The translations under genes and the position numbers were made by a program. Below are positions 31,762-55,364 of a stretch of DNA of 64,000 nt, one piece after another. Positions within the stretch are counted from its first letter, which is position 1; every line of letters begins with the position of its first letter. Location: contig NZ_JAGIQL010000002.1 in the NCBI RefSeq assembly GCF_017813245.1, positions 62,001-126,000 of the forward strand, read 5' to 3'. Source of the DNA: Streptomyces montanisoli. Its GTDB lineage: Bacteria; Actinomycetota; Actinomycetes; Streptomycetales; Streptomycetaceae. Below the pieces are notes generated by a model. The model saw only the letters and a program-made list of their open reading frames with translations. It ran no database searches and had not been told where the DNA came from.

Positions 31762-31807
31762 CGGAGTGGATGACCGGCCGGGGTGACCGGCTCGGTCACC
31801 CACTCCG
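31762..31807. repeat. 15-bp inverted repeat, candidate oriT or operator
   Basis: CGGAGTGGATGACCG (31762-31776) is matched by CGGTCACCCACTCCG (31793-31807) with a single mismatch and a 16-nt loop. It lies in the 102-bp gap just upstream of the mobC-relaxase genes, a usual place for oriT. The arms and loop carry GTGACCGG-type octamers that recur nearby. A terminator for the upstream membrane-protein gene is the main alternative. Confidence 0.5.
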
Positions 31808-33419: not shown

Positions 33420-33539
33420 GCGTCGTGCTCCGATCGCTCTCCGCGCGCAGGGGGCGTCGGCGGAGGGGTGCGCTGGGTCATGGGAAGTGCATGGGGCGGC
33501 GCGGGAAGGGCGCGGCCTGGCGTGGCGGCCTGCGGCGGA

Positions 33540-35266: not shown

Positions 35267-35267
35267 G

Positions 35268-37717: not shown

Positions 37718-38263
37718 GTGCCCTTGCCGGAACATGACGAGAGTCGTCTACGTAGATGCTGCGAGAAGCAAATCGATCAGCTGCGTCTGCCGTACCGCTT
37801 CACTACGCGTGAGTTGTGTGCGGCGATAGCGGACCTTCGCGGGAAGCCGATTGTCTTGAAGCCGTTGAGCACGCTCGGCGCTGTCGATGCGCCCTGCGGT
37901 GTGAGGATCGAAACTCCAACAGCCGACCTCCTTTATTACGAGGAAGGCACATCCGTTCACCACCAGCGGCACATACTCACACACGAACTGTGCCACGTGT
38001 ACTGCGACCATCCTGGAAGCCTGCAAATCAACGCGGACACGGCCCATGCACTCGGGGTGAACGCCACGCTGGTGATGCGCATGGCAGGGCGAACAAGCTA
38101 CGCAACGGCGGACGAACGCGAAGCGGAGATGATGGCCACGGTTATCCGCCAGCGCATCTATCGCGAACGTGAATCTCCTGCTCGCCAGCCTGAAAATGGG
38201 GCCGATAGCTGGGATGCACTCTTCGCCCAACCCGTCAGGAAAGGCCGGTTCCGGTCACGATGA
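37718..38263 (+). CDS. ImmA/IrrE-type metallopeptidase
   Basis: This 181-aa zinc peptidase has HELCH (catalytic H-E-x-x-H) near residue 90 and the downstream acidic ligand in DEREAEMMA. ImmA proteins cleave repressors, and the XRE regulator at 36028 is a plausible target by family precedent. GTG 37718 has a GAGGGGGGA tract upstream. The stop overlaps the next gene by 4 nt (ATGA), linking it to the membrane protein. Confidence 0.83.
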   Translation: MPLPEHDESRLRRCCEKQIDQLRLPYRFTTRELCAAIADLRGKPIVLKPLSTLGAVDAPCGVRIETPTADLLYYEEGTSVHHQRHILTHELCHVYCDHPGSLQINADTAHALGVNATLVMRMAGRTSYATADEREAEMMATVIRQRIYRERESPARQPENGADSWDALFAQPVRKGRFRSR

Positions 38264-39438
38264 ACGCCATCTTCCTCGGCATGGCCTGCCTGCTCGCAGG
38301 GGCTGCCGGCTACTGGGTCTTGGGCCGAGGGACCCCCCGTCCGACCGGCACGTGGGCCACAGGCGCGCTCCTCGGCTCGTTCGCCCTGGCCTTCGCCTCC
38401 TACGCGCCGCTGTTCGAGGACGCAGTCGAAGCGGTCGTGCCGCACGTTGCCAGATTGCTGAGTAACTGCGCTTCACTGGCCGCTGCCACCGCGGTCTTGG
38501 CCGTCTCGTTCCAGCTCAACCTGGAACCCACGGAAGCACAGCGCCGAGTCCGCCTGCGTCTCGTCCTTTTCGCCACGACAACCCTCGGCATGACGACGCT
38601 CTTCACGTGCGAGCAGGTGATGCACCGCTCACCGCAGGTGTACGCCATCTACCTGCTCCTGTTCATCTCCTACCTCGGCTTCGCCATCGTCGATTTCCTG
38701 CTCCAGGCAGTGCGGCAGTCGAAGTCAACTCGTCGAAGCAGCGTCCGGGTAGGGCTGCGGACGGCGGCAGTAGGCTGCGTCATCGCGCTGGTCTACGCCG
38801 GCTACAAGCTGGCGGTTCTCGTCTCCCTCGGCTTGGGGCTACGCCTCGTGCCCGACCACGCGAAGTGCTCGTCGCTCGTAGCCGCACCCTGCGTCTTCAG
38901 CGTGACGTCTCCTGCGCTCGCCGTTCTGCTGATCTGCCTCGGCCTCACGTTGCCTGCCGTGACGTACCCGATCAGCCAGGCCCGCCGACGTCGTTGGGAA
39001 ACGCAGTCCTTCGAAGCGCTCGGCCCCCTTTGGCAGGACCTGGCAGCAGCGATTCCGGAGATCGTCTTGTCGCCTTCAGACCCCGCCGAGGACACCTCTG
39101 CGGACTCCGACTTCTTGCTCCAGCGGCGAGTCATCGAGATCGGAGACGGCATCCTCGCCCTTCGGCCGTACCGGTCCCGCAGAGTGCAGGAGGCGGCCCA
39201 AAAAGCTTTCGACGTTGGAAGGGCGAAGGGAGCCGCAGCGGTGGAAGCGGCTGTGGTGAGGGAAGCGCTCGCCGCTGCGAAAGCGGGCCGGTTCGCAGAT
39301 GAGGTTGCCGTACCATCGGCGGAGGCCGCCGCCCGCAAGGACCTTCGTGCGGACACCGAGTGGCTCCTCCTGGTGGCCAATGCGTACCAGGTTGAGCGTG
39401 TCGCCGACGACAACCATCCAGGCCGGGTTGGAGCCTGA
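38260..39438 (+). CDS. MAB_1171c-family membrane protein
   Basis: This 392-aa protein has seven transmembrane segments between about residues 3 and 245, followed by a ~145-residue cytoplasmic helical domain (LWQDLAAAIPEI, VIEIGDGILALRPY). I recognise the architecture annotated as the MAB_1171c family of putative transporters, usually downstream of an ImmA/IrrE gene. No transport activity is established. It may sense or anchor the peptidase pathway. Confidence 0.72.
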   Translation: MNAIFLGMACLLAGAAGYWVLGRGTPRPTGTWATGALLGSFALAFASYAPLFEDAVEAVVPHVARLLSNCASLAAATAVLAVSFQLNLEPTEAQRRVRLRLVLFATTTLGMTTLFTCEQVMHRSPQVYAIYLLLFISYLGFAIVDFLLQAVRQSKSTRRSSVRVGLRTAAVGCVIALVYAGYKLAVLVSLGLGLRLVPDHAKCSSLVAAPCVFSVTSPALAVLLICLGLTLPAVTYPISQARRRRWETQSFEALGPLWQDLAAAIPEIVLSPSDPAEDTSADSDFLLQRRVIEIGDGILALRPYRSRRVQEAAQKAFDVGRAKGAAAVEAAVVREALAAAKAGRFADEVAVPSAEAAARKDLRADTEWLLLVANAYQVERVADDNHPGRVGA

Positions 39439-39442
39439 AGGC

Positions 39443-40621
39443 ATGACCGACCCGACTCAGGACCCCCGCTTCCTCCAGGACCCCTACCCCACCTATGCCG
39501 CCATGAGGTCAAGGTGTCCGGTGCAGGCCGTGCCCACCGGGTCCGGTGGGCACGTCAGCTACCTGGTCACCGGGTATGCGGAGGCGAGGGAGGCTCTCGG
39601 TGACGCTCGGCTCTCGAAGGACACGGCCACGTTCTTCGCAGACAAGGGGTCACGGCGTCGGCTGCACCCTGCAGTGGCGCACACCATGCTGGCCAGCGAT
39701 CCGCCCCAGCACACCCGGCTCCGCAAGCTGGTGACCAAGGCGTTCACGACCGGTGCGGTCGCCGAGCTGCGTCCGTTCATTGCCCAGGTCACCGACGAAC
39801 TGCTGGATCAGTGGCCCGTCGGCGACCAGTTCGACTTCGTGGCCGGCCTCGCGGTTCCGCTGCCGGTCATCGTGATCTGTGAGCTGCTCGGAGTCCCGGA
39901 ACAGGACCGGCCCGATGTCCAGCGCTGGTCTGGGGAGCTGTTCGCGGCAGGCAAGCCGGACGTGATCGACGCGGCCTCGCATTCCCTGGCCGGCTACATG
40001 ACCGACCTCATCGCTGCCAAGCGTCAGGCCGCCGGCAGCTCTCTCCTTGACCGGCTCATCTCGGCGCGCGACGGAGACGACCACCTGAGCGAGGAGGAAC
40101 TGGTCTCTCTGGCGGTGCTGTTGCTCGTGGCTGGACACGAGACCACCACCAACTTCCTCGGCAATGCCACCTTGGCGCTGCTCCAGAACCCTGCCGCGCT
40201 GACTCGCCTTCGTGAGAATCCGGATGACATCCCAGCGGCACTGAACGAGCTGCTTCGATACGACTCCCCCGTCAGTACAGCCACCTTCCGGTTCACCACA
40301 GAGGCCGTCACTCTCGGCGAGACCGATATTCCGGCTGGCGTCCCGGTGCTGGTTGCTCTCGGAGCCGCCAACCGCGACCCGGATCAGTTCCCTTCACCGG
40401 ACCTGCTCGACCTGGACCGAAGTGCCGCCGCTCACCTCAGCTTCGGCCACGGCATCCATCGCTGTATCGGCGCTCCCCTGGCCATGGCCGAGGCAGACAT
40501 CGCGCTCCGGGCGATCTTGACCCGCTTCCCCGGGATCCGGCTCGCCCAACGGCCTGACCAACTGGAATGGCGACGGACTCGGCTCGTCCGCGGGCTGGTC
40601 ACACTGCCCATCCGTGTTTAG
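39443..40621 (+). CDS. Cytochrome P450
   Basis: This 392-aa haem monooxygenase has the I-helix AGHETTTNFLG near residue 230, the E-x-x-R pair in ALNELLRYD, the meander and the haem loop FGHGIHRCIGAP with the axial Cys near residue 343. It is soluble and needs an outside ferredoxin and reductase. The ATG at 39443 lies 5 bp after the membrane-protein stop, with GGAG upstream, so they share a transcript. The substrate is unknown; its closeness to the lanthipeptide locus may be a coincidence because the two are convergent. Confidence 0.9.
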   Translation: MTDPTQDPRFLQDPYPTYAAMRSRCPVQAVPTGSGGHVSYLVTGYAEAREALGDARLSKDTATFFADKGSRRRLHPAVAHTMLASDPPQHTRLRKLVTKAFTTGAVAELRPFIAQVTDELLDQWPVGDQFDFVAGLAVPLPVIVICELLGVPEQDRPDVQRWSGELFAAGKPDVIDAASHSLAGYMTDLIAAKRQAAGSSLLDRLISARDGDDHLSEEELVSLAVLLLVAGHETTTNFLGNATLALLQNPAALTRLRENPDDIPAALNELLRYDSPVSTATFRFTTEAVTLGETDIPAGVPVLVALGAANRDPDQFPSPDLLDLDRSAAAHLSFGHGIHRCIGAPLAMAEADIALRAILTRFPGIRLAQRPDQLEWRRTRLVRGLVTLPIRV

Positions 40622-40713: not shown

Positions 40714-41073
40714 TCACCGTGCAGAACGCCGTGCGGCCCCTCGCGTACACAGTGCTCCGTCGTTCTGATCGAGGAGGCGCTCGGCTCGCGCCAGATCCTC
40801 GAGGGTGTCTACTGCCACACCGCCGTCCAGGACGGGGACCATCCGCACGGCGTTACCGTGCTCGACGAAGCGCAGCATCTCCACTCCTTCGGCACGCTCC
40901 AAGGGCCCCTGCTGGAGCTCACGAAAGTGTTGGAGAGCCTTGCCTGTCAAGCCGTAGAGGCCTAGTTGACGCAGGTACTTCGGCCGATCACCCCTCGGGT
41001 ACGGGATGGGCTGGCGCGAGAACATGAGGGCCTCGCTGCGGGCCGTGACGACGACCTTGACGACGTTGTGGTT
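40714..41073 (-). pseudogene. C-terminal fragment of a KdsB-like cytidylyltransferase
   Basis: The frame reads VVKVV, ALMFSRQPIPYPRG, LRQLGLYGLTGKALQHF, LERAEGVEMLRF, then a VDTLEDL end. These are the C-terminal conserved blocks of 3-deoxy-manno-octulosonate (KDO) type cytidylyltransferases. The N-terminal two thirds, including the nucleotide-binding loop, are missing, and the sequence to the right belongs to the lanthipeptide locus in another frame. It is therefore a relic at a recombination junction near 41073. Confidence 0.72.
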
Positions 41074-42208
41074 GCGGTACCTCCTTCGGGGGATTGCCCG
41101 GTGTCGCCTGGTCGTCACGGAGGAGTCGCCTCAGCTCGGCTTCCGAAAAGGCGACAGATTCGGTCAAGGCCCGCTGATGATCCGCGGGCAGGTTTCCGGA
41201 ACCGAGACCTGCGTTGGCGACCACCGAGCCGAGCGCGGATGCCCGCTCGGCGCTGAGCAGCGTCCGGGTGGTCGGGTGGTCCAGCACTTCACATGCGGCA
41301 TAGGCGTCGAGGCGGGCCACGTCGGCGAGAGCCGAAAGGAGCGAGTGCGTGTGCGGCCCGTCGGCGTCGAGTTCCAGGGCGGCCAGGCCCGTCCGGGCCT
41401 GGAACACGGCGATCGACGATTCGGGATCAGCGAGGAGAGAGGCGGCTGCACGCTGGGCCTGGTCGACGTCGGCCCGCGGAAGCGGTGCCGCGGCGGGACG
41501 GCAGTAGGCGCCCAGGATGGTGGCGACGGTCATCTCCCAGGGTTCCGTGGGCTGGGTGGTGTCGATCAGCTCGCGGGCCTGCTGGTCGAGGCCCTGCTCC
41601 ATTAGGGCCATGATCTTGATCTGCCGGCCGTCGAGGAGCCGGTTGCCGATGCCGCGATGCTGGGCCATGGCCTCGGCCGCGTCGGTCCACCGCCCGATGC
41701 GGGCGAGGGCGCGGGCGCCGTCCACGAGGAGCGTGACCCACAGCTCTCGGCACACCGTGCGGTGATCCTCATTCGTGCCGGTCAGGTCGGACAGATCGAC
41801 GGTGCGTCCGTCGATTTCGGTCTTCTCCCGCTGCCGTGCGGCGTGGTTGAGGCGGACCAGCAGGTCATAGGCGGCTTCCCCTTGGCCGTCGCGGGTCAGC
41901 AGCCGGGAAAGGTTGACCAGCGGCATCAGCGACATGACGGCGATCGGCCCGCTCAAGCGGCCGGTGTGAGCGAAGAGCTGGTGCTGGCGCCAGCACAAGT
42001 CGGCCGCCAGGTCGGGCAGGCCGACATCGGAGGCGATCAGCGCGGCGTAGTTGAGGACCCCGCAGGCGCGGGCCACCAGGTCGTGGTGGCTCGCACCTGC
42101 GGGCGCGACGGTCAGCCCGGTGAGGTGGTTGATGCGCTCGGGAAGCGGGAGCGCGGGCGCCTTGGTGCGGCGGACCAGTGGAATGCGGCCGGCTATCGCG
42201 GGAACCAT
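40988..42208 (-). CDS. Helical-repeat protein of the lanthipeptide locus, altered C-terminus
   Basis: This 406-aa soluble protein, mostly helical with TPR-like alternation (NYAALIASDVGLPDLAADL, PLVNLSRLLTRDGQGEAAYD, ELWVTLLVDGARALARIG), has no catalytic motif. It starts at ATG 42208, 4 nt after the methyltransferase stop, and is the last gene of the lanthipeptide run. The final ~30 residues (from about KEVPQPQRR) are read out of frame through the KdsB-like fragment, so the natural C-terminus was probably replaced. It may bind the peptide or other enzymes. Confidence 0.65.
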   Translation of the reverse strand: MVPAIAGRIPLVRRTKAPALPLPERINHLTGLTVAPAGASHHDLVARACGVLNYAALIASDVGLPDLAADLCWRQHQLFAHTGRLSGPIAVMSLMPLVNLSRLLTRDGQGEAAYDLLVRLNHAARQREKTEIDGRTVDLSDLTGTNEDHRTVCRELWVTLLVDGARALARIGRWTDAAEAMAQHRGIGNRLLDGRQIKIMALMEQGLDQQARELIDTTQPTEPWEMTVATILGAYCRPAAAPLPRADVDQAQRAAASLLADPESSIAVFQARTGLAALELDADGPHTHSLLSALADVARLDAYAACEVLDHPTTRTLLSAERASALGSVVANAGLGSGNLPADHQRALTESVAFSEAELRRLLRDDQATPGNPPKEVPQPQRRQGRRHGPQRGPHVLAPAHPVPEG

Positions 42209-42212
42209 CGGT

Positions 42213-44261
42213 TCAGCCCTTGCGCGCCCAGTCGATGACCAGTCGGCTGTAGGGCTTGTCGACGAGGAAGCGCGTGTCGTCAACCGTGAGCCGGTCACGT
42301 GCATCCGCGACGGCCATCCGGAAGCCCGGTTCGGGGGCGTCGTTACCGCCGCTGGCGTCCCAGGCACGGATCTCGCCCACGACGCGCTCGGCGAGGGTGG
42401 AGCCGGCCTCGCCGTGGCCGATCACGCCGACCTCCCAGTACCGGCCCTTGTCGTCCTCGCCTTCGCGGATGGTCAGGTAGGCGAGCGACCCGCCGTCGAG
42501 GGCGGCCATGGAGCCCCAGCCGAAGTGTGGGGTGAACCCGGGGCGCTGGCCCGGCAGCCGAGACAGGCCGTTGGGCAGCACGCAGGCCAGGTACAGGTAC
42601 AGCCACTCCCACGCGGAGCCCTGCCGGAACTTCACCCCGGTGTAGATCTTGGTCTGGTGCTGGTCGAGGACGGTACGCAGCGCGTCGCGGTCGACGTCCT
42701 GTTCGCTGAACGTCTCCAGGCGCACGTTGCCCTCGCCGGCCATGGGGACGAGGGTGTACACGTCGTCGCAGACGCCCTTACGGAGCGGGATGAAGGTGGC
42801 CATCTCGCAGGAGACGGTCTTCCAGGTGTCGCCGTCGCGTTCGAAGGCGAAGGAGCGGGAGATGCTGCCGCGGATCCGCATGGGCAGGACCAGGCGTCCG
42901 CCGGGGGCGAGCTGGTCGAGGATTTTCACGGGTACGTCGCCGGCGCCGACCGTGAAGATGATGCGGTCGTAGGGGGCGTGCTCGGGCAAGCCGGCCGCGC
43001 CGTCGGCCATCACCGCGGTGGCGTTGTCGACGCCGGCTTCGGCGAGGTGCCTGCTCGCGCCGGCGACGAGGTCCTGGTCGACGTCGAGGGTCCACACCTG
43101 GCCGCCGGGGGCGACGATTTTGCCGAGGAGGGCGGCGTTGTAGCCGGTGGCGGCTCCTGCTTCCATGACCTTGTGGCCGGGTTGGGCGCCGAGTTGTTCG
43201 AGCTGGGTGGCGACGATGGACGGTGCGGAGATGCAGGAGATCATCTCTCCGTGCTCGTCGTGCTTGATCGGGACCGCGTCCTCCTTGTACGCGCTCTCCG
43301 GGTCGATGCCGGGCAGGAAGGCGTGCCGGTCGGTGGTGCGGAAGGCGTCGATGACGGTATGGCTGTGCAGGTGGCCGCTGTCGACGAGTCGCTGGGCGAG
43401 GGCTTCGCTCAGCTGGGCGGGCTGGGTTACGGGTGTCACGGTGGTCTCCATTCGAGGGAGGCTAGGGTCCGCCGGGGCGGACGTGGGGGTAGACACGTCA
43501 GCTGCCTCTCCGGTGGAGAAGGCGACGTGACGGCCGAGCCACGCGGTGGCGGCCTGCACGTCGGCAGGCACGCCTGCGCGGTTGAACGCGAAGATCGCGT
43601 GATGGGCGATGACGGCCCGGATTCCGCGTATCAGTCGGCCGTCGGCGGCGAGCCGGCGCAGGCGGCGGCCGGCTTCCTCGAAAGCGGCGAACCGCTCGCC
43701 CCAGCCCGTCTCCGCCTCGGGGCGCAGGGCGGCGTCCGCGTTCATCAGTCGCCGCATCGCGGAGACGGCCTTGTCCAGCGTGGGCCCTTGGGGCGGGCTA
43801 AGGGTGGGCCGCAGGGCGGCCCACCGGGCGTACACGTCCCCGGCTTCGAACGGGTCCAGCCCGGCCTCGCGGATCATGGCGGACAGCAGCATCACGCTGC
43901 GCTCCCGGGCGCCGGGGACGCCGGTCTGGGCGAGCGCGGCCGGGCTGTCGGCGCAGAACACGTCGTGCGCGACCGCCATGCCCTCGGGACCGCCGAAAGC
44001 ATGGGTCTCCGGCTCGTAGACGCCCGCCGCCCAGCCCGTGATCACGCTGTCGGCGACGAGCTGGTCCAGCAGGCCGGTGGAGGGCTGTTCGGTGCGCAGA
44101 CGCACGCCGGCGTCCTTGCGCAGGAAGTGGAAGCGGTGTCCGGCCAGTGCGGTCGCCAGGGCCTGGGCGGCGGCGTCCCCGTGCTGGTCGGGGAAGGCCA
44201 CGGAGGCGTGCCACCAGGACGTGTCCAAGCGGATCGGCAGGTTCTCGTCGTCGAAGGTCAT
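42213..44261 (-). CDS. fxlM: LanB elimination-like domain fused to isoaspartyl O-methyltransferase (FxlM type)
   Basis: In this 682-aa protein, residues ~1-260 resemble the SpaB_C/thiopeptide-type domain (LDTSWWHASVAFP, HFLRKDAGVRLR, YEPETHAFGG), which eliminates glutamate from glutamyl-Ser/Thr. Residues ~300-680 are a PIMT-like methyltransferase (VMEAGAATGYNAALL as motif I, then FTVGAGDVP). Proteins of this kind in FxLD systems methylate an Asp of the lanthipeptide, which can then form a succinimide. AAGGAG lies upstream. The fusion supplies the half missing from the LanB protein encoded at 45365-47401. Confidence 0.85.
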   Translation of the reverse strand: MTFDDENLPIRLDTSWWHASVAFPDQHGDAAAQALATALAGHRFHFLRKDAGVRLRTEQPSTGLLDQLVADSVITGWAAGVYEPETHAFGGPEGMAVAHDVFCADSPAALAQTGVPGARERSVMLLSAMIREAGLDPFEAGDVYARWAALRPTLSPPQGPTLDKAVSAMRRLMNADAALRPEAETGWGERFAAFEEAGRRLRRLAADGRLIRGIRAVIAHHAIFAFNRAGVPADVQAATAWLGRHVAFSTGEAADVSTPTSAPADPSLPRMETTVTPVTQPAQLSEALAQRLVDSGHLHSHTVIDAFRTTDRHAFLPGIDPESAYKEDAVPIKHDEHGEMISCISAPSIVATQLEQLGAQPGHKVMEAGAATGYNAALLGKIVAPGGQVWTLDVDQDLVAGASRHLAEAGVDNATAVMADGAAGLPEHAPYDRIIFTVGAGDVPVKILDQLAPGGRLVLPMRIRGSISRSFAFERDGDTWKTVSCEMATFIPLRKGVCDDVYTLVPMAGEGNVRLETFSEQDVDRDALRTVLDQHQTKIYTGVKFRQGSAWEWLYLYLACVLPNGLSRLPGQRPGFTPHFGWGSMAALDGGSLAYLTIREGEDDKGRYWEVGVIGHGEAGSTLAERVVGEIRAWDASGGNDAPEPGFRMAVADARDRLTVDDTRFLVDKPYSRLVIDWARKG

Positions 44262-44297
44262 GAGGGAGGGAACTCCTTGCGATGCGGCGGGGTGGGG

Positions 44298-45368
44298 TCA
44301 GGTGAGCAGGAGGACACGGGTCCAGCCGGTGGTGTCGGTGGCGTCCAGGGCGAGGCGGGCGCCGGCGCGGCCTTCCATGAATCCGGGTTTGGGCAGACGC
44401 TCCCAGTCAGCGGCCAGCCGTCGCTGGAGGTCGTGGATGATGGGGATGAAGCGCGCGGGTGCGGGGCTGTCGGCGGCGACCGCGCGGGCGAGGGCCAGCA
44501 GTCCGGCCCAGCCGTGGCACAGCGTCGAGTCGGTGATGCGGGCGAGCCGCAGCGGATCGGTCAGGATGGTCTCGACGGTGTCCTCGGCTCTTTGGCGCCG
44601 GGCGGGGTCCCTGAGGGCGTGCGCGGCGAGCTGTTGCGCGCGGGCGATGCCGGGCTGGCCGTAGCACCAGGACTGGCGGGCCGGCTCCGCTGCGGGCGGC
44701 TGATCGGTGTCCAGGTGTGCTGCGGTGGTCCAGTAGTGGGCGCCATGTCGGTCGAGCCAGGTGGCGAACGTGTCGACGGCTTCCTCCTGCCCGGGGACGC
44801 TGACTCCGGCGCGCAGGGCGAGGGAGAGCACGGCCAGGGGCCCCGCGATGCCGTGGGCCATGCCGTTGTTGCCGTGCCCGCCGGCCATCTCCTTCCCGTC
44901 CGGGCCGACCGGTGACCACCACCCGGGCACCATCCGCCCCTCACAACGGCCGTGTTGCGCGAGCGAGACGAGACAGGCAAGCACGTCGGGCAGTCGGGGT
45001 GCTGGCGGGCGGCGGGACAGCAGCAGTGCGGCAAGGCCGGTCATGCCGCGGACGAGGTCCCACTCGGCGAGATGGGGCAGAGCGCCGGTCGCCTGTCGGC
45101 GGTGGGCGGCGGCGAGCCGGGCGTCCACGACACGATCGACGGCCGCCCGGACGTCGTCGTCGGCGCTGTGGGCGCGGGACAGGACGAACTCCAGGGCGGG
45201 CGCGCCGTGGAAGAGACTGGCGTTGCTGCCGGTGCTGACTCCCCGGGCGGTGGCCCGGGCGAGGTGGCGGCGGGCGGTGGACAGATCGCGGCGCTCGATG
45301 TCGAGCAGAGCCATCCCCAGGGCGCCCTCGGACAGGTCCTGCGTTCGGGGCAGGGTTGTCGTGGTCAT
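44298..45368 (-). CDS. lanC: LanC-like lanthionine cyclase
   Basis: This 356-aa zinc enzyme adds Cys thiols to dehydro-residues to form (methyl)lanthionine rings. Its zinc ligands appear in SWCYGQPG and LCHGWAG, and the barrel-repeat signatures GNNGMAHGIAGPL and LVRGMTGLA are present. The ATG at 45368 overlaps the LanB stop (ATGA), so the two are coupled. The length is slightly short for LanC (usually ~400), but all key residues are present. Confidence 0.9.
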   Translation of the reverse strand: MTTTTLPRTQDLSEGALGMALLDIERRDLSTARRHLARATARGVSTGSNASLFHGAPALEFVLSRAHSADDDVRAAVDRVVDARLAAAHRRQATGALPHLAEWDLVRGMTGLAALLLSRRPPAPRLPDVLACLVSLAQHGRCEGRMVPGWWSPVGPDGKEMAGGHGNNGMAHGIAGPLAVLSLALRAGVSVPGQEEAVDTFATWLDRHGAHYWTTAAHLDTDQPPAAEPARQSWCYGQPGIARAQQLAAHALRDPARRQRAEDTVETILTDPLRLARITDSTLCHGWAGLLALARAVAADSPAPARFIPIIHDLQRRLAADWERLPKPGFMEGRAGARLALDATDTTGWTRVLLLT

Positions 45369-47401
45369 GAGCGCCTGGCCAGGGGGACGACGATGCTGTG
45401 GGCCCGACCGTTGATCCACCCGTCGGCGTCCGGCGGGGGCGCTTCGTGCAGCGTGGCGATGCCGAAAGAGCTGGCGTCCAGGTGCGCGCGCAGGAGGGCC
45501 AGGTCGACGTGGCGGGTGAGGTCGAGGGGCAGCTGCTGGTCGTCCTTGGGGAGAAGGACCCGCTCCGGCACTCGGAACCGGGCACGCCAGGCATGGAGTT
45601 GGTCGCCCCATTGCGGGAGTGGGACGGTTCGGGCAGGCAGCGTGCGGCTGTGGAGCTTCCACCGGGCAGCGGCGAGGATGGTGCGCCGGTAGGTGAGGGC
45701 CGGGGTGAAGGGCAGCGTCCAAGCGGCACCCCAGTCGAACCAGGTCACCTGCGGGGACGCGGCCCGGCTGATCTCTCCGAGGAAGCGGGCCATCGGTGGG
45801 GTGTAGTTGTTCCACAGGAAGTTGATGGCGGTGGGGGCCAGCAGCTCCAGTCGTTTACCCGTGGTGGACTCCACCAGCTGGGGTCGGCCGTCGGCGACGG
45901 TGACCGAGAGGTCGCGGGGAAAGAGAACGCTCGGGTCGGGGTGGCGGAATTCGCCGACGCTGACGATGCGGGGCAGGGCCTGCGGCGCGCGGGTGAGCAG
46001 ATCGGCCGGCACCCGCCCGGCGTGGAAGGAGAGCTGCGCGAGTTCCGCCTGCGGATCGACGGTAGGCAGCTTTGCGTACGTTGCCTCGGTGCCGGGGAAC
46101 AGGTGCCAGAACCGGCCGGTCATCGATCCCGCCGAACGGGAAACGGTCAGAACACGCAGCCGGAAGTCGCCTCGGTCCAGGGTAGGAACTGTGGTGGCGT
46201 GGACCTGTGCGGCCAGTTCCAGGTGGGGAGCCACGTGGCGCGGATCGTCGCCGGCTGCTTGCAGTTCCTCGATCATGGCGCCGGTCAGCGTGACGGTGCG
46301 GCTGCCTTCGATGGCGGCGGTGCCGGCAAGTTCCAGCAGCAGGCGATCGCGCCGGGACATTGGCCGGGGCGGTTCGCTCGCTGCGGTGAACCCTGCCGGG
46401 AAGCCCACACCTCCGTCAGGGTCTGTTGCCAGCTCCACCGGAATCGCGGCGTTTTCGCCGTAGAGCGCGGTGAACTGCTCGATCCACCGGCGCCAGGACG
46501 GTGTCCCGTTCGGATGAGTGGCCAGGCGGGCCAGTACAGTTGCCGCGGTCTCCACCTCGGTCAGCACCTGCTTGGGCAGTCGCACCTCGGCGTCCAGCCG
46601 CAGGTCGCACGCTGTCCGCAGGTCGGCCATCTGCGCGCGCGACATAGGGGGCAAGACGCTGGCGGGGTCGGCGATGGTGGCGGGCGCGCGCAGCGAGGAG
46701 CGCAGCAGCCGCACACGCAGCAGTTCACGCAGGAAGCTGTCGCGCGCCGTGTCGTTCACGGCGGGGAACTCCGCGGCCAGCTTGTCGGACAGCTGCCGAT
46801 AGGCGATCGGTGATCGGGCCAGGTCGAGCACGAGACGCAGCGCAGGGTTCAATGCGAGGCGGAACTCGGCATCGCCCTCGGACGGCACGTGGATGTGCTG
46901 TCCGTCCTGCCGGATCAGCGTGTTGACGCACACCTCCGCGCTGGCCATGCGTGCGGCGTCGCTCTCCCAGGCAGTGAGCATCTCGTCGAGCCTGGCAGGG
47001 TCGGGGCGGGCGACGGCTCGGTGCTCTTCGCCGAAGCGCACGGACGCGGCCTGGTCGAAGCCGAGCGGTGTGACACCGGCGAACAGACCGTACGGGGTCG
47101 AGCGGTGGGCGTAGCGGATCGCGTAACGCACGGTGGCCAGGGCCGCCCGATGCATCCGGCGCACCTTCGGCGTGCGGCCGTTGATGATGGCCTGCACCTG
47201 CTCAGCCAGGTGAGGGCTGGCTTGTGACACGGCCCGACGGAAGGCGGTGTCGGACCACACGGTGCTCAGCCATCCGCGCCACTGGTCCGCTGTTGCCGTG
47301 GGCGCCGGCCAGGGCGGCATGGCGGGCTCGGTCGTGTGCGCCGCGGCGCGCAGCATGGCCTGCCCCGTGCCCTCGTACTGGCGGGACCGGTGCCGAGTCA
47401 T
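45365..47401 (-). CDS. lanB: Lantibiotic dehydratase, glutamylation domain only (split LanB)
   Basis: This 678-aa protein uses glutamyl-tRNA to activate Ser/Thr of the precursor. The typical STPYGLFAGVTPLGF motif lies near residue 105. The usual C-terminal elimination domain (~300 residues) is absent; a similar domain is fused to the methyltransferase at 42213. The ATG at 47401 was chosen for its AGGAGAGCGCTG ribosome binding site. Such split dehydratases are known in thiopeptide and FxLD systems. Confidence 0.9.
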   Translation of the reverse strand: MTRHRSRQYEGTGQAMLRAAAHTTEPAMPPWPAPTATADQWRGWLSTVWSDTAFRRAVSQASPHLAEQVQAIINGRTPKVRRMHRAALATVRYAIRYAHRSTPYGLFAGVTPLGFDQAASVRFGEEHRAVARPDPARLDEMLTAWESDAARMASAEVCVNTLIRQDGQHIHVPSEGDAEFRLALNPALRLVLDLARSPIAYRQLSDKLAAEFPAVNDTARDSFLRELLRVRLLRSSLRAPATIADPASVLPPMSRAQMADLRTACDLRLDAEVRLPKQVLTEVETAATVLARLATHPNGTPSWRRWIEQFTALYGENAAIPVELATDPDGGVGFPAGFTAASEPPRPMSRRDRLLLELAGTAAIEGSRTVTLTGAMIEELQAAGDDPRHVAPHLELAAQVHATTVPTLDRGDFRLRVLTVSRSAGSMTGRFWHLFPGTEATYAKLPTVDPQAELAQLSFHAGRVPADLLTRAPQALPRIVSVGEFRHPDPSVLFPRDLSVTVADGRPQLVESTTGKRLELLAPTAINFLWNNYTPPMARFLGEISRAASPQVTWFDWGAAWTLPFTPALTYRRTILAAARWKLHSRTLPARTVPLPQWGDQLHAWRARFRVPERVLLPKDDQQLPLDLTRHVDLALLRAHLDASSFGIATLHEAPPPDADGWINGRAHSIVVPLARRS

Positions 47402-47488
47402 CAGCGCTCTCCTCATCTTCTGGCGTGACGGGCGGGGGCAGGCCGGACGGGGAGATCCCCGCCCGGCCGCTGCCGGGGTGGCCCCGGC

Positions 47489-47674
47489 TTACGAAGTAGT
47501 GCAGGCGCTGGGGCAGGAACTGCCGCAGGTGTCGCCGGTGCTGCACATCAGGACCGTCTCGGTCGCCGGCGTACCCTCGATGAAGGTGATGTCGAGCCCG
47601 AACGGGTCCTCGTCGGTCTTCGCGAGGTTCGCCTGGGCCTGTTCGGCCGGCTTCTCGGCCTGGATGGCGGTCAT
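47489..47674 (-). CDS. fxlA: FxLD-family lanthipeptide precursor
   Basis: This 61-aa precursor has an acidic/Gln-rich leader containing DPFGLDITF, the FxLD recognition motif (F25-G-L-D28), before a core of about 25 residues. The core has Cys at 44, 50, 54 and 58 and nine Ser/Thr after residue 43, allowing up to four rings. D48 (T-G-D-T) is the only Asp in the core and is therefore the likely methyltransferase target. A perfect AGGAGG precedes the ATG. The leader cleavage site is uncertain, perhaps after E33-G34. Confidence 0.9.
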   Translation of the reverse strand: MTAIQAEKPAEQAQANLAKTDEDPFGLDITFIEGTPATETVLMCSTGDTCGSSCPSACTTS

Positions 47675-47803: not shown

Positions 47804-48274
47804 TCAGGCTGCCGCTGCGGGCTGAGCCTGAGGGTGGTTGTTCGCGGCCTGGTCCAGCACCCTGGTGAAGTGCTCGGCGCGCTCGTCGCCCTCAGCCTCC
47901 TGGGCGCGGAGGTCGCCGAAGTGGTGCCAGTACCGTCGGCTCACTTCGCTGTCCATCAGCTTCGCTGCGTAGAACGGCAGGTCACCGATGCGGACGAAGC
48001 CGAGGCGGTCGCGCAGGCTGAGTGTGCAGATCAGCTGGTTGGCCTTCAGTAGCTGCACGTATTCATCGACGTCCATGTCCTCGGGTGCCCAGAGTTTCGC
48101 GAGGTCGGGGTTGACGGACAACTGCGCCAGCCAGTCGAGCTGGTTGCGTGCGACGATCGCTTCGTTGCGCTCGGCTTGGTGCCGTGCGTCCTGCCTGAGC
48201 CGTGCGGCGCCCACCACGGCGGTAGTGAGGGAGAGGGCAGCACCGGCAGCGAGGACGGCGGTGGTGAGCTTCAT
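47804..48274 (-). CDS. DUF6082-like membrane-anchored protein
   Basis: This 156-aa protein has an N-terminal hydrophobic segment (about residues 5-22) and a helical domain with RNEAIVARNQLDWLAQL and YWHHFGDLRA. I recognise it as the DUF6082 type that often accompanies FxLD lanthipeptide genes; its role is unknown. It might take part in export or immunity, since no transporter gene is seen in the locus. Confidence 0.65.
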   Translation of the reverse strand: MKLTTAVLAAGAALSLTTAVVGAARLRQDARHQAERNEAIVARNQLDWLAQLSVNPDLAKLWAPEDMDVDEYVQLLKANQLICTLSLRDRLGFVRIGDLPFYAAKLMDSEVSRRYWHHFGDLRAQEAEGDERAEHFTRVLDQAANNHPQAQPAAAA

Positions 48275-48346
48275 GGTTGAACAGTCCTGTCGTAGAGCGA
48301 AGTTGCGGAAGTGGGTCGGCCTGGTGGCGAGGTAGCGGCTCCGGTG

Positions 48347-48922
48347 TCATGCGGCCTCCGCGAGCGCGAAGTTCGGGGCATCTTCAGTGCCGAGATCTTG
48401 GGCGTACCGGCAGCGCACGGTTTTGAGGGCGGCGGCGATGGGAGGCAGTCCGACGCTGGCCCTTCGCTCGTCCAGTGATTCCGGGGCGCGTAGCGGGCAC
48501 AGTTCGACGCCGCCCTCGTGGAGAAGGAACTGGGTTCCGTACTCCTGGTCGTTCCCGTGGTTGATGAGGGTGCGATCGTGCAGGTGTGCCCAGTGCTGGA
48601 TGGGTGCATCGCCGGCCTTGACGGCGCGTTGCAGCAGGATGGTGGCGGCGCGCTGGAAGGCGGGATCGTCGTTGCTGTGCAGGGCGATGCTCCAGGCGGC
48701 GCGGGCAGCGGTGGAGCCGACAAGGCAGTGGCCGGGCCAGTCGTGTTCGGCCAGGATGCGGCGCAGCACCTTCGTGTTGGCGTGGTCGGCGTGGCGGGCT
48801 TGGCCGAACTGGACGGCGTCGAGCTGGTTGCGCACCCGTCGGGCCCGGTGCGTGGCTGATTGTGCTGCGCGGGCGATCAGCTCGCGGGCGAGGTCGGGCC
48901 GCTGTGGTTCTGTGATCGTCAC
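48347..48922 (-). CDS. DUF6624-like protein
   Basis: This 191-aa protein has the DUF6624 pattern: DWPGHCLVGSTAARAAWSIAL, FQRAATILLQRAVKAGDAP, LHDRTLINHGNDQEYGTQF, and a closing RRASVGLPPI. The conserved His, Asp and Gln suggest an enzyme, but no activity is established. GTG 48922 overlaps the upstream stop (GTGA). Members often lie in natural-product loci. Confidence 0.7.
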   Translation of the reverse strand: MTITEPQRPDLARELIARAAQSATHRARRVRNQLDAVQFGQARHADHANTKVLRRILAEHDWPGHCLVGSTAARAAWSIALHSNDDPAFQRAATILLQRAVKAGDAPIQHWAHLHDRTLINHGNDQEYGTQFLLHEGGVELCPLRAPESLDERRASVGLPPIAAALKTVRCRYAQDLGTEDAPNFALAEAA

Positions 48923-49557
48923 GCGCTGCCCCGAACGCCCAGATCCGGCTGTGGTTCGTCGACGAGGCAGCCGATGAGTGCGCTCAACCCGGGCCGGTGC
49001 TCGGCGGCGAGTTCGAGGCGCGTGACAAGATCGGCCTCCCTGCCCGGGCCGGACTCGTGCACGTGCCAGCCCACGTCGGTGAGCCTGCGCAGAAAGACTG
49101 CGGTGGGCTCGGTTTGGGGGCTCTCGCCGGTCAGGGTTTCGGCTCGTACGTGGGGAAGGTCGAGCCGGTCGGCGTAGTCGGAGGCCCACAGGGTGATCAG
49201 CCGGGTGATGTCGTCTGTCTGGTCGGGCAGGGTGTGGATGTCGCCCAGGAAGAGGCAGGGTCCCTCGCCCCACCCGATGTCGGGATCGCGCTGCGGGATC
49301 ATGCAGGCCAGTAGCTTCCCGTCCTCGAACATCCCGGCGGGCCTCATCTGCGGGTTACGGAAGAGCGCCGGGATGTCGGCTCGGGCGGGTACGGGCAGGT
49401 CGCGCTGGGTGAGCCAGCGCTGCCGGTCGCGCACCAGGACGGCAGCTTCCTCGCGCTCGGTATCCGTGCGGAGTGTGCGCATCTCGTATGCGGAGGTCTG
49501 GAGTGTCGGCGTGGACGGGGGTTGCGCCGGTGGCTCCTGGTGGGTTGTGGAGGTCAC
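48919..49557 (-). CDS. GNAT-like acetyltransferase or FxLD accessory
   Basis: The middle of this 212-aa protein has features of a GNAT fold (AAVLVRDRQRWLTQRDLP, MFEDGKLLACMIPQ, ACMIPQRD before an acidic loop, LITLWASDYADRL). The acetyl-CoA loop (Q/R-x-x-G-x-G/A) is not clear, so the enzyme may be non-canonical or degenerate. GTG start, GTGA overlap with the upstream regulator gene. Confidence 0.5.
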   Translation of the reverse strand: MTSTTHQEPPAQPPSTPTLQTSAYEMRTLRTDTEREEAAVLVRDRQRWLTQRDLPVPARADIPALFRNPQMRPAGMFEDGKLLACMIPQRDPDIGWGEGPCLFLGDIHTLPDQTDDITRLITLWASDYADRLDLPHVRAETLTGESPQTEPTAVFLRRLTDVGWHVHESGPGREADLVTRLELAAEHRPGLSALIGCLVDEPQPDLGVRGSA

Positions 49558-50177
49558 TGGCTTGCTCCGTTCCGCGTCTCGCGTGCCGGCTCGGCCGCAA
49601 GGAGATTCCAGCCGTAGGCAAGGATCACCAGGTGGGTGGTGTCTCGTGCGTGCGTGTCGGCGAGGAGTTGGTCGAGGGCGGCGCGCAGATCGGCCGGGGC
49701 GAGGGTGGCGGCGAGGGCGATGTCGCGTGGCGCGTCGTGCTCGGCGACGGCTCGCAGCAGCCGCCGTTGGTCCGCGCCGAGGTGCGGCGTTGCCCTGTCC
49801 GCTCGCGGAGGGGCCACCTGCTGGGTGGTGAACAGGCGGTGCACGATCATCGGGAGCTTGCAGCGGGGCGGGCAGTTGAGGCGCACGCGAATGTCGCGGA
49901 TGTACTGGCGGACGGTAGCGGCAGACAGCCCGGTCTGTGCGGCGATGTTGTGAGCGTCAAGGCCGTCTGCGAGGTATTGGGCGACGCGCCGCAGGGTCGG
50001 AGTCAGGGGAGTGCTCGGTGCGCTGGTCGTCATGGGCGGAGCCACGGGATTCGCTTTCTCGGCTGGGTGGATGGTCACGGGTGGGGGTGCCGCCGGCCCC
50101 GCCGGGGGCCGGGGGCCGGCGGCTCGGGCCCGTGCGAGGCGGTGGGCATTCACGGGGTGCCGCGCACGGGGGTTCAT
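49554..50177 (-). CDS. LuxR-type helix-turn-helix regulator
   Basis: In this 207-aa protein a LuxR-like helix-turn-helix lies about residues 60-110 (RRVAQYLADGLDAHNIAAQ, SAATVRQYIRDIRVRLN). The C-terminal part may carry a second helix-turn-helix (DQRRLLRAVAEHDAPRDIA). The ATG at 50177 overlaps the upstream stop (ATGA); the internal ATG at 50033 is an alternative start that omits a Pro/Ala-rich leader. It is likely to control the lanthipeptide genes. Confidence 0.75.
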   Translation of the reverse strand: MNPRARHPVNAHRLARARAAGPRPPAGPAAPPPVTIHPAEKANPVAPPMTTSAPSTPLTPTLRRVAQYLADGLDAHNIAAQTGLSAATVRQYIRDIRVRLNCPPRCKLPMIVHRLFTTQQVAPPRADRATPHLGADQRRLLRAVAEHDAPRDIALAATLAPADLRAALDQLLADTHARDTTHLVILAYGWNLLAAEPARETRNGASQ

Positions 50178-51427
50178 GCGGCCGTCGGGCCGGGCTGTGC
50201 CCGGACGGCTTCAGGGGTGAGGCGTTGGGACCACTGGACGTGGTCTTCGTCGAAGGCGGCGTCGGCGAGGCGGATGCGCTGGATTTCGCCGGTTCCGGCG
50301 GGTGGGTAGGTGTGCTGGATGTCGCGCCACAGGCGCTGGAGGACGTGATGGCCGTCGAGGGCGTGGGCGCCGTGCAGTTCCATGGCGTCTTGGGCGGATC
50401 GGGCAGCCCATTGGTGGCCGAGGTATTTGGCGTTGATGAGGTCGGTGTCGCAGGGCAGGCCCTGGTCGAGGAGGTGCACGGACTGGTAGGCGAGGATGCG
50501 GGCGGCGCGCAGGCGGGCTTCCATGTCACCGATGCGGTCGCGTAGGACGGGCAGGTCGGACAGGGTGCCCCGGTAGCGCGAGTGGGCCTTGAGGCGGGCG
50601 GTCGTGGTGGCCACGACGGCTTCGTGGATGCCGAGGCTGATGGCGGCGAGGTTGGGCCGGCCGTACAGGATGCTGCTGCTTTGGGCCACGGCCAGTCCTT
50701 GGCCGACTTCTCCGATCACGTGGTCCTCGGGGATGCGGACGTGGTCGAGGCGGAGGCGGCCGGCGGAGAAGCCGTGCAGGCCGAGGCCGGGACGGTGGTC
50801 GCGGACCGAGAGCCCGCGGCGGCTTGTTTCGACCATGAAAGCAGTCAGCGCCTGGGAGGTGCGCACGCCCGCCTCGGCGGTCCGGGCGATGACGAGGTGG
50901 GCCCCTGCGAGATGGCTGTTGCCGATATGGCTCTTGTTGCCGGTGATCACCCACTGGTTGCCGACGCGTTCGGCGGTGGTTTCGATGCCGCCGAGATGCC
51001 CGCCGGCCTGCGGCTCGGTCACGGCGATCGACAGCAGTCCGAAACCGTCCGCGAGCGGCGCTAGCCAGCGGTGCTTCTGCTCGTGGGTGGCGAAGTGCAG
51101 CACGGCGCCGACGGGGATCAGGGTGGCCTGCAGTATGGCCGCGGCAGCCGCCGAGACGCAGGCGATGCGGTGGATCAGGATGGTCTTGGCCACATGCCCA
51201 GCCCCCAGCCCGCCGAGGCTGGGTGGGACGGTGACGGCGAACCAGCCCCGTACGGCCATCAGTTCGGCGACCTTGCGCTCCACCCGGCCCGGCGCGGCCT
51301 CCATCCCCGCGGCGCGTGGCGCGACGTGCTCGACGGCGAAAGTGTTCGCCTCGTCCCACAGCAGTGCGTTGCGAGTCGTGAGGTAGGGGTGCAGGGCCGG
51401 TGGCGGTGTGGTGGGTGCGGCGGACAT
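50174..51427 (-). CDS. Acyl-CoA dehydrogenase-like flavoprotein without the usual catalytic Glu
   Basis: This 417-aa protein has the full acyl-CoA dehydrogenase fold: N-terminal helices, the FAD-contact strand SIAVTEPQAGG, ITGNKSHIGNS, then the C-terminal helical domain and GTGEIQR. Where medium-chain enzymes have Glu before the LMRD-type motif, this protein reads GHHVLQRLWRD, and the alternative Glu site (isovaleryl type) reads ILYGRPNLAA. It may therefore act as a flavin monooxygenase or otherwise modified enzyme. AGGGAGA precedes the ATG. It could tailor the lanthipeptide. Confidence 0.8.
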   Translation of the reverse strand: MSAAPTTPPPALHPYLTTRNALLWDEANTFAVEHVAPRAAGMEAAPGRVERKVAELMAVRGWFAVTVPPSLGGLGAGHVAKTILIHRIACVSAAAAAILQATLIPVGAVLHFATHEQKHRWLAPLADGFGLLSIAVTEPQAGGHLGGIETTAERVGNQWVITGNKSHIGNSHLAGAHLVIARTAEAGVRTSQALTAFMVETSRRGLSVRDHRPGLGLHGFSAGRLRLDHVRIPEDHVIGEVGQGLAVAQSSSILYGRPNLAAISLGIHEAVVATTTARLKAHSRYRGTLSDLPVLRDRIGDMEARLRAARILAYQSVHLLDQGLPCDTDLINAKYLGHQWAARSAQDAMELHGAHALDGHHVLQRLWRDIQHTYPPAGTGEIQRIRLADAAFDEDHVQWSQRLTPEAVRAQPGPTAA

Positions 51428-51512
51428 GGTCTCCCTCTCCCTGGGTGAAGGTCGCAGGCGTGGAGCGGCCGGGTGTCGCTAGCGGATCCCGGGCGGGGGC
51501 GGTGGTGCGGGT

Positions 51513-52154
51513 CTAGCGGACGGGCGCCGGGGCGATTCGGTCCATCACCTGCGTGCCGGCGGCGATGACGATGTCGCGGAGTCGGCGGGCCTCGCTCAGG
51601 GGCCGCTTTTCGGGGTCGATGACGCACACGGTGCCCAGCACGGTGCCGCTGTCGTGGATGAGTGGGGCACCGAAGTAGGAGCGGATCCCGACCGCGTCGA
51701 CCACGTGGTTGCCGCTGAAGCGCGGGGAGGCGTGCACGTCGTGGAGCGGAAGGGCCTTCTTGCGGGCCACGACCTCCGGGCACCAGCCGTGGTCGCGGCT
51801 CATGGTGCGCCCGACGATGACGTACCCGCTGTCCGCCGGCGGCTGGTGCAGTCCGACGAAGGTCTGCTCCTGGAGGAAGAGGTTGACGAACCCGTACAGG
51901 AATCCGGCCCGTGTGGCCATGTCGCGGGCCAGCTCGTCGAACTCCTCGCTGGCCGTGGTGGGCACGCCCAGGCGTTCGAGGAGCTCGTAGCGCCGGGCCA
52001 GCTCCGCCGACTGCCCGCCCTGCGGCCCGGAGAAGGCAGTGGCAGGCGGGGCGGACAGGTGGTGGGGGTGATGTAGTGCGTCGCCGCGTCGCGGCAAGGA
52101 CACGGCAGGTGGGGCGATCCGCGCAGGGAGGTAGGGGTCGTTGTGCTGTGACAT
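51513..52154 (-). CDS. GAF-domain protein
   Basis: Residues ~55-205 of this 213-aa protein form a GAF domain: DELARDMATRAGFLYGFVNLF, RDHGWCPEVVARKKALPLHDV, SYFGAPLIHDSGTVLGTVCVID. It could bind a small ligand or haem. No output domain is attached. The start overlaps the conservon GTPase stop by one base, so it is part of the same transcript and may feed signals into the conservon. Confidence 0.83.
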   Translation of the reverse strand: MSQHNDPYLPARIAPPAVSLPRRGDALHHPHHLSAPPATAFSGPQGGQSAELARRYELLERLGVPTTASEEFDELARDMATRAGFLYGFVNLFLQEQTFVGLHQPPADSGYVIVGRTMSRDHGWCPEVVARKKALPLHDVHASPRFSGNHVVDAVGIRSYFGAPLIHDSGTVLGTVCVIDPEKRPLSEARRLRDIVIAAGTQVMDRIAPAPVR

Positions 52155-52798
52155 CAGGCGTCCTGGAGGTTGATTGTGGGTGTGGTTTTCACGGCGTGGT
52201 CGACGAGGGTCAAAAGGACACCGGCGACGTGGTTCGGGTTTCTGGCATCACAGGCGACCACCGGTATCCGGGCGGGGAGTTTGAGGGCGGTGCGGACCTG
52301 TTCGGGGTGGTAGCGGTGCGCTCCGTCGAACTCGTTGATGGCGACGACGAAGGGCAGACCGATGTCTTCGAAGAAGCTGACGGGAGTGAAGCTGCTTTCC
52401 AGGCGCCGGGTGTCGAGCAGAACGACCGCGCCGACGGCTGACCGGGACAGGTCGTACCAGAGATCGACGAACCGGTCCTGGCCGGGCGTGCCGAACAAGA
52501 ACAGTTCCAGGGGCACGGGCGCATCGGGCAGGGTGAGGCGGCCGAAGTCGAAAGCGACGGTCGTGGTCCGCTTGGCCTCGACGCCCGCCAGACTGTCCAC
52601 ACCGGTGCTCGCCTCGGTCAGGTACTCCTCCGTGCTCAGGGGCGTGATCTCGCTGACCGCACCCACCGCGGTGGTCTTGCCCGCGCCGAAGCCCCCGGCG
52701 ATAACGACCTTCAGCACGGTCGGCGCAACGGTGTGCGGGCGCGGCTCAGTGCGCAGCACCGTGGCCGGGTCATCCGGCCTGGGGGTGGGCCATGGCAT
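52154..52798 (-). CDS. cvnD: Conservon GTPase (CvnD-like)
   Basis: This 214-aa small GTPase has P-loop GGFGAGKTT near residue 35, a switch-type TVAFDFGRLTL, FLFGTPGQDRF for the G3 motif and an AINEFD sequence in place of NKxD. It is the last of the four conservon proteins, which form a membrane-associated G-protein-like signalling complex with the kinase, roadblock and DUF742 proteins. Confidence 0.9.
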   Translation of the reverse strand: MPWPTPRPDDPATVLRTEPRPHTVAPTVLKVVIAGGFGAGKTTAVGAVSEITPLSTEEYLTEASTGVDSLAGVEAKRTTTVAFDFGRLTLPDAPVPLELFLFGTPGQDRFVDLWYDLSRSAVGAVVLLDTRRLESSFTPVSFFEDIGLPFVVAINEFDGAHRYHPEQVRTALKLPARIPVVACDARNPNHVAGVLLTLVDHAVKTTPTINLQDA

Positions 52799-53183
52799 CG
52801 GGCCACTTCCTTTTCAGGCCCGCGGACAGGGCCGCCAGCAGTTGCGGGGAGGGACGTGCATCCGCGTCCGTGTCGGTCGCGGCATAGGGGGCGGTGACGG
52901 GCACGACCAGTGCGTCGGCGTCCAGGAGGTCCGAGACGAGGATCTTCACGGCGGTGACGGGGCGGCACAGTCGGCCCGCCAGTTCGGTCACCGAACGTCG
53001 ACGCTCACGGCACAGGGCGAGAATCCGCTCGCACTCCTCGGCCTGACCCGGACCGGGCCGCCCCGGCCCATGCTCCAGCACCGTCTCCAGCCCGAGCAGA
53101 TGCCGCGGCGTGGTGCGCCCTCGCGTGAGGGTGTAGGTCCGCACGAACGCCGACTCCTCACCGGCGCGGCCGTGTGCACTCAC
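52770..53183 (-). CDS. cvnC: Conservon DUF742 protein (CvnC-like)
   Basis: This 137-aa protein carries DUF742 features: VRTYTLTRGRTTP, CERILALCRERRRSVTELA, VTAVKILVSDLLDADALVV. The helix-turn-helix-like core couples the roadblock protein to the GTPase. GTG 53183 overlaps the roadblock stop (GTGA), and its end overlaps the GTPase gene by 29 nt. Confidence 0.88.
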   Translation of the reverse strand: MSAHGRAGEESAFVRTYTLTRGRTTPRHLLGLETVLEHGPGRPGPGQAEECERILALCRERRRSVTELAGRLCRPVTAVKILVSDLLDADALVVPVTAPYAATDTDADARPSPQLLAALSAGLKRKWPDAMAHPQAG

Positions 53184-53692: not shown

Positions 53693-53766
53693 AGGAATCG
53701 CTCCAGAAGGGGGAAGGGCCGGCGGATACATCCGGGCCACCGGGAACGTGGAAGGAAACAGCGACA

Positions 53767-55275: not shown

Positions 55276-55364
55276 GGGAATCCTCATCAGGCTGGGGTGG
55301 CTAAGCGTGCTGCGGGTGGCCGAGCGGGGCGGTGGAACCCCGACCGCCCCGTAGACAGCCCCGC

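Follow-up and report, generated by a model that had tools for sequence, protein, structure and literature searches.

Stand-alone proteins related to the elimination, or glutamyl lyase (GL), domain of the lanthipeptide dehydratase LanB are often fused to a protein-isoaspartate methyltransferase (PIMT) (Walker et al., PMC7268733), and a 2026 review likewise notes that some of these methyltransferases carry a fused GL domain (PMC13001092). One such fusion, CoiSA of Streptomyces coelicolor, has been characterised (Sarksian and van der Donk, PMC9486935; earlier PMC9011353). Its lyase is held to syn-eliminate, giving D-allo-L-methyllanthionine (MeLan) at Thr57, and needs a Lys that replaces Tyr, the mutant of which accumulates glutamylated peptide (PMC9011353, PMC9486935), while Arg51, Arg53 and Glu89 are non-essential (PMC9486935). 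The syn-GLs, whether fused or free-standing, are reported from clusters that also encode a full-length dehydratase (PMC9486935). Here we describe a lanthipeptide locus of Streptomyces montanisoli in which LanB ends after its glutamylation domain and a GL-PIMT fusion is the only lyase left, which is its unusual feature. It lies in a 64,000-nucleotide stretch (the window; positions 62001-126000 of contig NZ_JAGIQL010000002.1, assembly GCF_017813245.1) of a host genome of 7.24 Mb in 401 contigs.

Each of the closest described systems shares part of this arrangement. The coi cluster of S. coelicolor A3(2) resembles it in the FxLD-type precursor with an Asp in the first ring, the cyclase LanC, the syn-GL-PIMT fusion and a further gene, CoiH, and its fused lyase has the same Lys/Arg/Glu signature with NisB Arg826 lost; however, CoiB is a full-length enzyme that includes an anti-GL, and CoiA1 has Thr50 and an Asn where the window core has Ser53 and an extra Cys, Cys44. 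The spt system of SapT (SptBa/SptBb/SptC) also pairs a LanB confined to glutamylation with a syn-GL encoded separately, no other lyase being described (PMC9011353, PMC9890492), and SptBb makes (E)-dehydrobutyrine (Dhb), as established by NMR (PMC9890492), but as described there SptBb lacks a methyltransferase fusion and no PIMT is named. With olv (OlvA/OlvB/OlvC/OlvSA) the locus shares the PIMT, a core Asp that becomes succinimide/isoAsp and an extra N-terminal Cys (PMC13001092, PMC9486935), whereas olv has a full-length LanB, OlvB, and its OlvSA lacks a GL domain. The dmx system (dmxorosin) likewise has a split LanB, a LanC and no protease gene, but the word methyltransferase is absent from the main text of PMC11855644. 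The parts are thus known and the GL-PIMT fusion is already published, which, together with the syn-elimination signature that sets ring stereochemistry, was overlooked in a first-pass annotation of this DNA. The literature searched, which did not extend to the supplements of PMC9486935 (Table S6), PMC9011353 and PMC7268733, where prior notice is possible, yielded no account of a LanB restricted to glutamylation whose locus relies on a GL-PIMT fusion for its one lyase.

The genes lie on the minus strand in the order precursor, LanB, LanC, GL-PIMT fusion and a fifth gene, here called gene H (Table 1). The first-pass annotation had read the region as an FxLD lanthipeptide locus with a split LanB and an elimination domain joined to a PIMT-like methyltransferase, and all of this holds. 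The precursor family score is well above its cut-off (Table 1) and the methyltransferase matches TIGR04364 at 406.8 bits (cut-off 320); LanB matches PF04738 to the last position of the profile (649/649) and has no C-terminal GL domain; and TIGR03891/PF14028 (residues about 40-246) and TIGR04364, 'methyltransferase, FxLD system' (282-678), follow one another in a single open frame. That annotation had also placed five genes inside 42213-47674, where there are four, the fifth conserved gene lying just outside. LanB could be aligned to MibB (5EHK) only as far as residue 793 of 1115, and its stop codon overlaps the LanC start (ATGA), so that no degraded lyase remnant lies between the two. LanC contains WCYG and CHG motifs, which we take to be its zinc ligands.

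The same arrangement recurs widely. TIGR04364 scored above cut-off in 74 of 199 relatives searched, and the loci classified were the window, 60 loci near TIGR04364 matches or from the host's own second locus, 80 named loci and 40 more. The 80 were the best-scoring of 556 confirmed, so that type C, defined below, is enriched by design. Removal of six duplicates (L046, L107, L114, L149, L158, L159) left 175 loci. Sixty of these are type C, in which LanB consists of the N-terminal domain only (a tail of <60 aa was required) and the fusion is the sole GL; 25 are type A (full LanB plus fusion), 34 type B (full LanB, stand-alone GL and separate PIMT) and eight type O (full LanB and PIMT, no syn-GL in the stretch). 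The remainder are 42 without LanB in the stretch (17 loci among the first 61 were left unclassified for this reason), four unclear and two with LanB-N plus a GL fragment and no fusion (L156, L167), both cut off at contig edges. One type B locus is a repeat, L077 and L210 (neither with gene H) having the same LanB by genome coordinates, so that 33 are distinct. L061, where a type B locus stands next to a partial type A one, went into type A for the classification, the comparison of LanB lyase residues, the gene H count and the GL tree, was relabelled B in the LanB tree and was excluded from the core counts. The 48 named type C loci span 13 genera in five families. A set sampled evenly across the genus gave a full-coverage LanB-N match in a frame of 703-731 aa in at least 13 of 295 genomes, among the matches listed; four of the 13 are among the classified loci, all with a fused lyase, and the short LanB frames outside the classified set include those of G052, G008, G270, G001, G276, G302 and G357.

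In 65 type C loci (five of them duplicates) LanB ends 3-7 aa past the N-domain profile, and this, with the overlapping stop and start codons, rules out a frameshift or assembly error as the cause of the missing lyase. Chance or artefact is ruled out as well by family scores far above the cut-offs and by the same split in 60 non-duplicate loci.

The fusion is made up of a GL part (residues about 15-248), a flexible linker (about 249-278) and a PIMT with a C-terminal extension (281-682). In an AlphaFold2 model (pLDDT 82.3, pTM 0.60; residues 249-278 below pLDDT 50) the GL part superposes on the NisB elimination domain (4WD9; Z 16.3, 207 residues, root-mean-square deviation (rmsd) 3.5) and on thiopeptide pyridine synthases, among them PbtD (Z 14.8 over 233 residues, rmsd 3.8), and the PIMT part on the protein-isoaspartate methyltransferase 2YXE (Z 31.0, 213 residues, rmsd 1.6); a PDB sequence search with the GL domain alone returned one meaningless match only. 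The fused GL carries the syn-GL signature, namely K49 (equivalent to CoiSA Lys46), R54 and R56 (CoiSA Arg51 and Arg53) and E85, with the expected hydrophobic residue, A88, at the position of NisB Arg826. Across type C, K49, R54 and R56 are found in 59 of 60 GLs, the single missing Lys being a gap in a partial frame, E85 in all 60 and Ala at the Arg826 position in 59. Among type A fused GLs (e.g. L048, L050, L054) the first conserved Arg is replaced by Pro or Lys in 14 of the 25, so that substrate binding may differ from that of CoiSA.

How, then, did LanB come to be without its lyase? A GL tree (109 rows, rooted on anti-GLs) places 59 of 60 type C lyases in one clade (SH-aLRT 97), and a midpoint-rooted tree of 94 LanB N-domain rows, into which 29 of the 60 type C loci were entered, holds 28 of the 29 together with support 100. 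The exception in both is L060, on a long branch of its own in the GL tree, which suggests two or more origins of the split. The named sequences nearest to the lyase and LanB of the window come from Streptomyces. Two Spongiactinospora loci (L162, L165) join the type C clade in both trees (99 and 99) and have full-length LanBs (frames 5174-8419 and 3015-6260, respectively), in which His, His, Gln, Gln and Asp occupy the lyase positions of NisB Arg784, Arg786, Glu823, Arg826 and His961, respectively. All five NisB lyase residues are retained in 23 type A rows (one a duplicate). The dead-looking lyase in this sister lineage points to loss of function before deletion, such that decay of the LanB lyase probably preceded its removal; in the simplest reading it would have lost function once the fused lyase took over, and then been deleted. 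Type B follows a parallel trend: both carboxylate-binding Args are lost, with His961 kept, in 11 of 17 LanBs (L039-L041, L077, L087-L091, L093, L097), and many of these apparent two-lyase clusters may have only one working lyase.

The precursor has the leader motif FGLD and a core that reads T40 VLM C44 STGD48TC50 GSSC54 PSAC58 TTS61. The one Asp, four Cys and nine Ser/Thr of the first-pass annotation stand in that Asp48 is the sole Asp after Asp28, the Cys are 44, 50, 54 and 58 and nine Ser/Thr lie within 44-61; the figure of nine, however, depends on the cleavage site, since Thr40 and possibly Thr35 and Thr38 may belong to the core. CoiA1 has the rings T43-C47, T50-C55 and T57-C51 (PMC9486935). 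At an offset of +3, based on published CoiA1 residue numbers and a coi-like precursor in L045 rather than on an alignment of CoiA1 itself, these correspond to T46-C50, around Asp48, S53-C58 and T60-C54. Cys44 stands at the place of the extra Cys of OlvA and its likely partner is Thr40, giving four predicted rings. The proposal that Asp48 is the modified residue is upheld, as homology to OlvSA makes it the likely methylation site.

The precursor cores of type C relatives are very similar to that of the window. Cores were parsed with a pattern that requires Ser/Thr-x-Asp-x-Cys in 59 of 60 type C loci (no precursor was found in L155), and the presence of Asp at the Asp48 site in these 59 is demanded by the pattern. 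At the CoiA1 Thr43 site all 59 have Thr, at the Thr50 site 58 have Ser, 55 have the extra Cys, and the residue after Asp is Thr in 31, Asn in 25 and Gly in three. Type A cores (n=23) have Thr at the Thr50 site in 22, the extra Cys in none and Gly (12) or Asn (11) after Asp. Of the candidate precursors, one of three in L045 and a spurious second frame in L074 did not fit the pattern. Since Ser becomes dehydroalanine (Dha), which has no E/Z geometry, Ser here would bypass the step at which CoiC needed (Z)-Dhb, and the separately placed L060 also has Ser at this site; the association with loss of anti-elimination is only suggestive of a link, given that nearly all type C loci form one clade and the Ser is mainly a single change. 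The stronger idea, that Ser is required once anti-elimination is lost, is weakened by Spongiactinospora, which keeps Thr at the site despite its dead-looking LanB lyase.

Gene content, domain boundaries, signatures, conservation and tree placement are established by these comparisons, and from the characterised relatives we infer the catalytic steps, ring pattern, stereochemistry, order of events and role of gene H. We consider it likely, with good confidence, that the locus encodes a class I 'lanthimiditide' pathway in which a glutamylation-only LanB works with a CoiSA-type syn-GL fused to the LanSA/PIMT, the fused GL being the sole lyase. LanB would glutamylate Ser and Thr of the FxLD precursor, and the fused GL would eliminate the glutamate, converting Ser to Dha and Thr to (E)-Dhb. 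LanC would then close four thioether rings (T40-C44, T46-C50, S53-C58, C54-T60), after which the PIMT half would methylate Asp48 inside the T46-C50 ring, leading to succinimide and isoAsp/Asp. With (E)-Dhb as the one isomer formed in this scheme, MeLan rings of mostly D-allo-L configuration are to be expected. The suggestion that dehydration and Asp methylation are physically linked is borne out by the covalent fusion, but only in part, as the fused GL would perform elimination alone and LanB would glutamylate, and OlvSA acts only once dehydration and cyclisation are complete (PMC13001092). LanC should therefore act between the two fused activities, and bringing these to the peptide together is a more likely role for the fusion than passing it straight from one to the other.

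Gene H is found directly downstream of the fusion in all 65 type C loci (five duplicates) and in 25 of 26 type A loci. A profile search for it succeeded in all 60 type C loci, in 24 of 25 type A and in 19 of 34 type B (19 of 33 once the repeat is removed) but in none of the eight type O, a distribution that accompanies the syn-lyase rather than the PIMT. In the host genome only the window copy was found. Its model is a helical solenoid (pLDDT 87.4). Foldseek returned nothing for it at E <=0.001, and the structures that match best are tetratricopeptide repeat (TPR) proteins, NprR among them (Z 12.5 over 259 residues, rmsd 6.5), with Z scores that fall within the range expected by chance for helical repeats. 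The distribution fits CoiH, which is described as part of coi and absent from olv. From position and association with a syn-GL, rather than from comparison with the CoiH sequence, gene H probably belongs to the CoiH family, and a role as scaffold or in peptide binding is a guess.

The reading of an all-syn pathway has to be weighed against three others. It is unlikely, but deserves serious attention, that the fused GL mainly anti-eliminates, or that LanC sets the stereochemistry, so that ordinary DL/LL rings result: with Arg51, Arg53 and Glu89 of CoiSA non-essential and the first Arg so variable in type A, the link between signature and outcome rests on few enzymes, and Ser53, as Dha, offers no E/Z choice. 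Set against this, Lys49 and the loss of Arg826 match both SptBb, for which (E)-Dhb has been shown (PMC9890492), and CoiSA, for which it is inferred (PMC9486935), and both features are nearly invariant in type C. A slim chance is that no peptide is made because the locus is silent or in decay. No protease or exporter was found nearby, no product is reported from the natural producers of the coi and olv clusters (PMC9486935), the PIMT of a second FxLD locus in the same genome is broken into two frames, and a crude codon-position GC filter listed LanB, the fusion and H but not the precursor or LanC (the LanC frame entered included its long upstream extension). All five window genes are nevertheless open frames with counterparts conserved in other families, and the relatives' cores are very similar. 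Slimmer still is the chance that another gene of the host provides an anti-lyase acting in trans, so that stereochemistry would be mixed, as it is in mCoiA1. A genome-wide search with PF14028 found three lyase domains at E <=0.001, that of the window fusion and two in the second FxLD locus (L039, taken from positions 82000-101500 of contig C1, with the genes at 3536-10447 of that stretch), which comprises a full LanB, LanC, a stand-alone syn-type GL, a precursor and the split PIMT (9160-9804 and 9749-10447). The full-length LanB of that locus is the obvious candidate, but its lyase has Gly and Thr in place of Arg784 and Arg786, the carboxylate-binding Args, and Gln for Glu823; no GL with a complete anti signature and no further PF14028 match was found by this search of the host genome, and the type C arrangement is kept in 13 genera among the 48 named loci.

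Several observations nonetheless tell against the all-syn pathway or the history proposed for it. The second-locus LanB lyase retains the equivalents of Arg826 and His961, so that its inactivity is only inferred, and a lyase outside PF14028 may exist elsewhere in the genome. The column of the catalytic His of anti-GLs is a gap in the global profile alignment of the fused GL, and both trees come from quick searches without bootstrap. Thr, not Gly, follows Asp48, and this may slow the formation of a succinimide. Processing of CoiA1 T57S was poor (PMC9486935), which hints at a preference for Thr, whereas the window core has Ser53. Above all, when only CoiSA(ED) eliminated, CoiC failed to fully cyclise CoiA1 (PMC9486935), and an all-(E) route therefore needs a LanC of changed specificity.

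Table 1. Features of the S. montanisoli locus (window coordinates).
Feature	Position	Strand	Remark
FxLD lanthipeptide precursor, 61 aa	47489..47674	-	TIGR04363 56.1 bits, cut-off 30
LanB, glutamylation domain only, 683 aa	45365..47416	-	PF04738 5.6e-154
LanC cyclase, 356 aa	44298..45368	-	PF05147 9.1e-26
GL-PIMT fusion, 682 aa	42213..44261	-	TIGR03891/PF14028 + TIGR04364
Fusion codons for R48-K49	44115..44120	-	K49 = CoiSA K46 equivalent
Gene H, 406 aa, predicted TPR-like	40988..42208	-	adjoins fusion, just beyond 42213-47674

With regard to the surroundings, the absence of an evident transporter or protease was also found here, as a Pfam scan of the 30 window proteins gave no ABC exporter or peptidase family above cut-off. 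Worth noting are a 'putative transporter' of the MAB_1171c family at 38260-39438, on the strand opposite to the cluster, a sub-threshold Peptidase_M78 match at 37718-38263 (13.4 bits, cut-off 22) and a periplasmic binding protein 15 kb from the locus. A protease gene is likewise reported absent from the coi cluster (PMC9486935). At 38260-40621 the MAB_1171c-family membrane protein adjoins a P450, and close homologues are similarly paired near the type A locus L059. Upstream of the precursor (47804-52154) are DUF6082, DUF6624, LuxR-type, acyl-CoA dehydrogenase and GAF genes, which recur beside L066 and L068 and partly beside L067, so that the neighbourhood is conserved in close relatives. Genes for GAF, ATP_bind_1, DUF742 and histidine-kinase-like ATPase proteins stand in tandem at 51513-55458, a row similar to a Streptomyces conservon. 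Further away, 28550-35642 encodes a relaxase (PF03432), a NikA/MobC-like mobilisation protein and a DUF2637 protein and looks like part of an integrated mobile element.

The stereochemistry of lanthipeptides affects their activity, and the manner in which lyase, cyclase and core evolved together was a question left by the published coi study (PMC9486935). A wider interpretation, possible but put forward tentatively, is that a widespread and unrecognised lineage has abandoned anti-elimination: the LanB lyase would have died in place and then been deleted, leaving the fused syn-lyase as the sole one, with LanC adapted to (E)-Dhb wherever the core has Thr, Ser brought into the ring that called for (Z)-Dhb and a TPR-like protein, a companion of the syn-lyase, holding the complex together. 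The type C lineage is the natural counterpart of the experiment in which the CoiSA lyase acted alone and CoiC left rings unfinished, and comparison of the two opens to direct experiment the question of which features allow a LanC to use (E)-Dhb. The lineage further points to a simple sequence rule by which all-syn products may be predicted.

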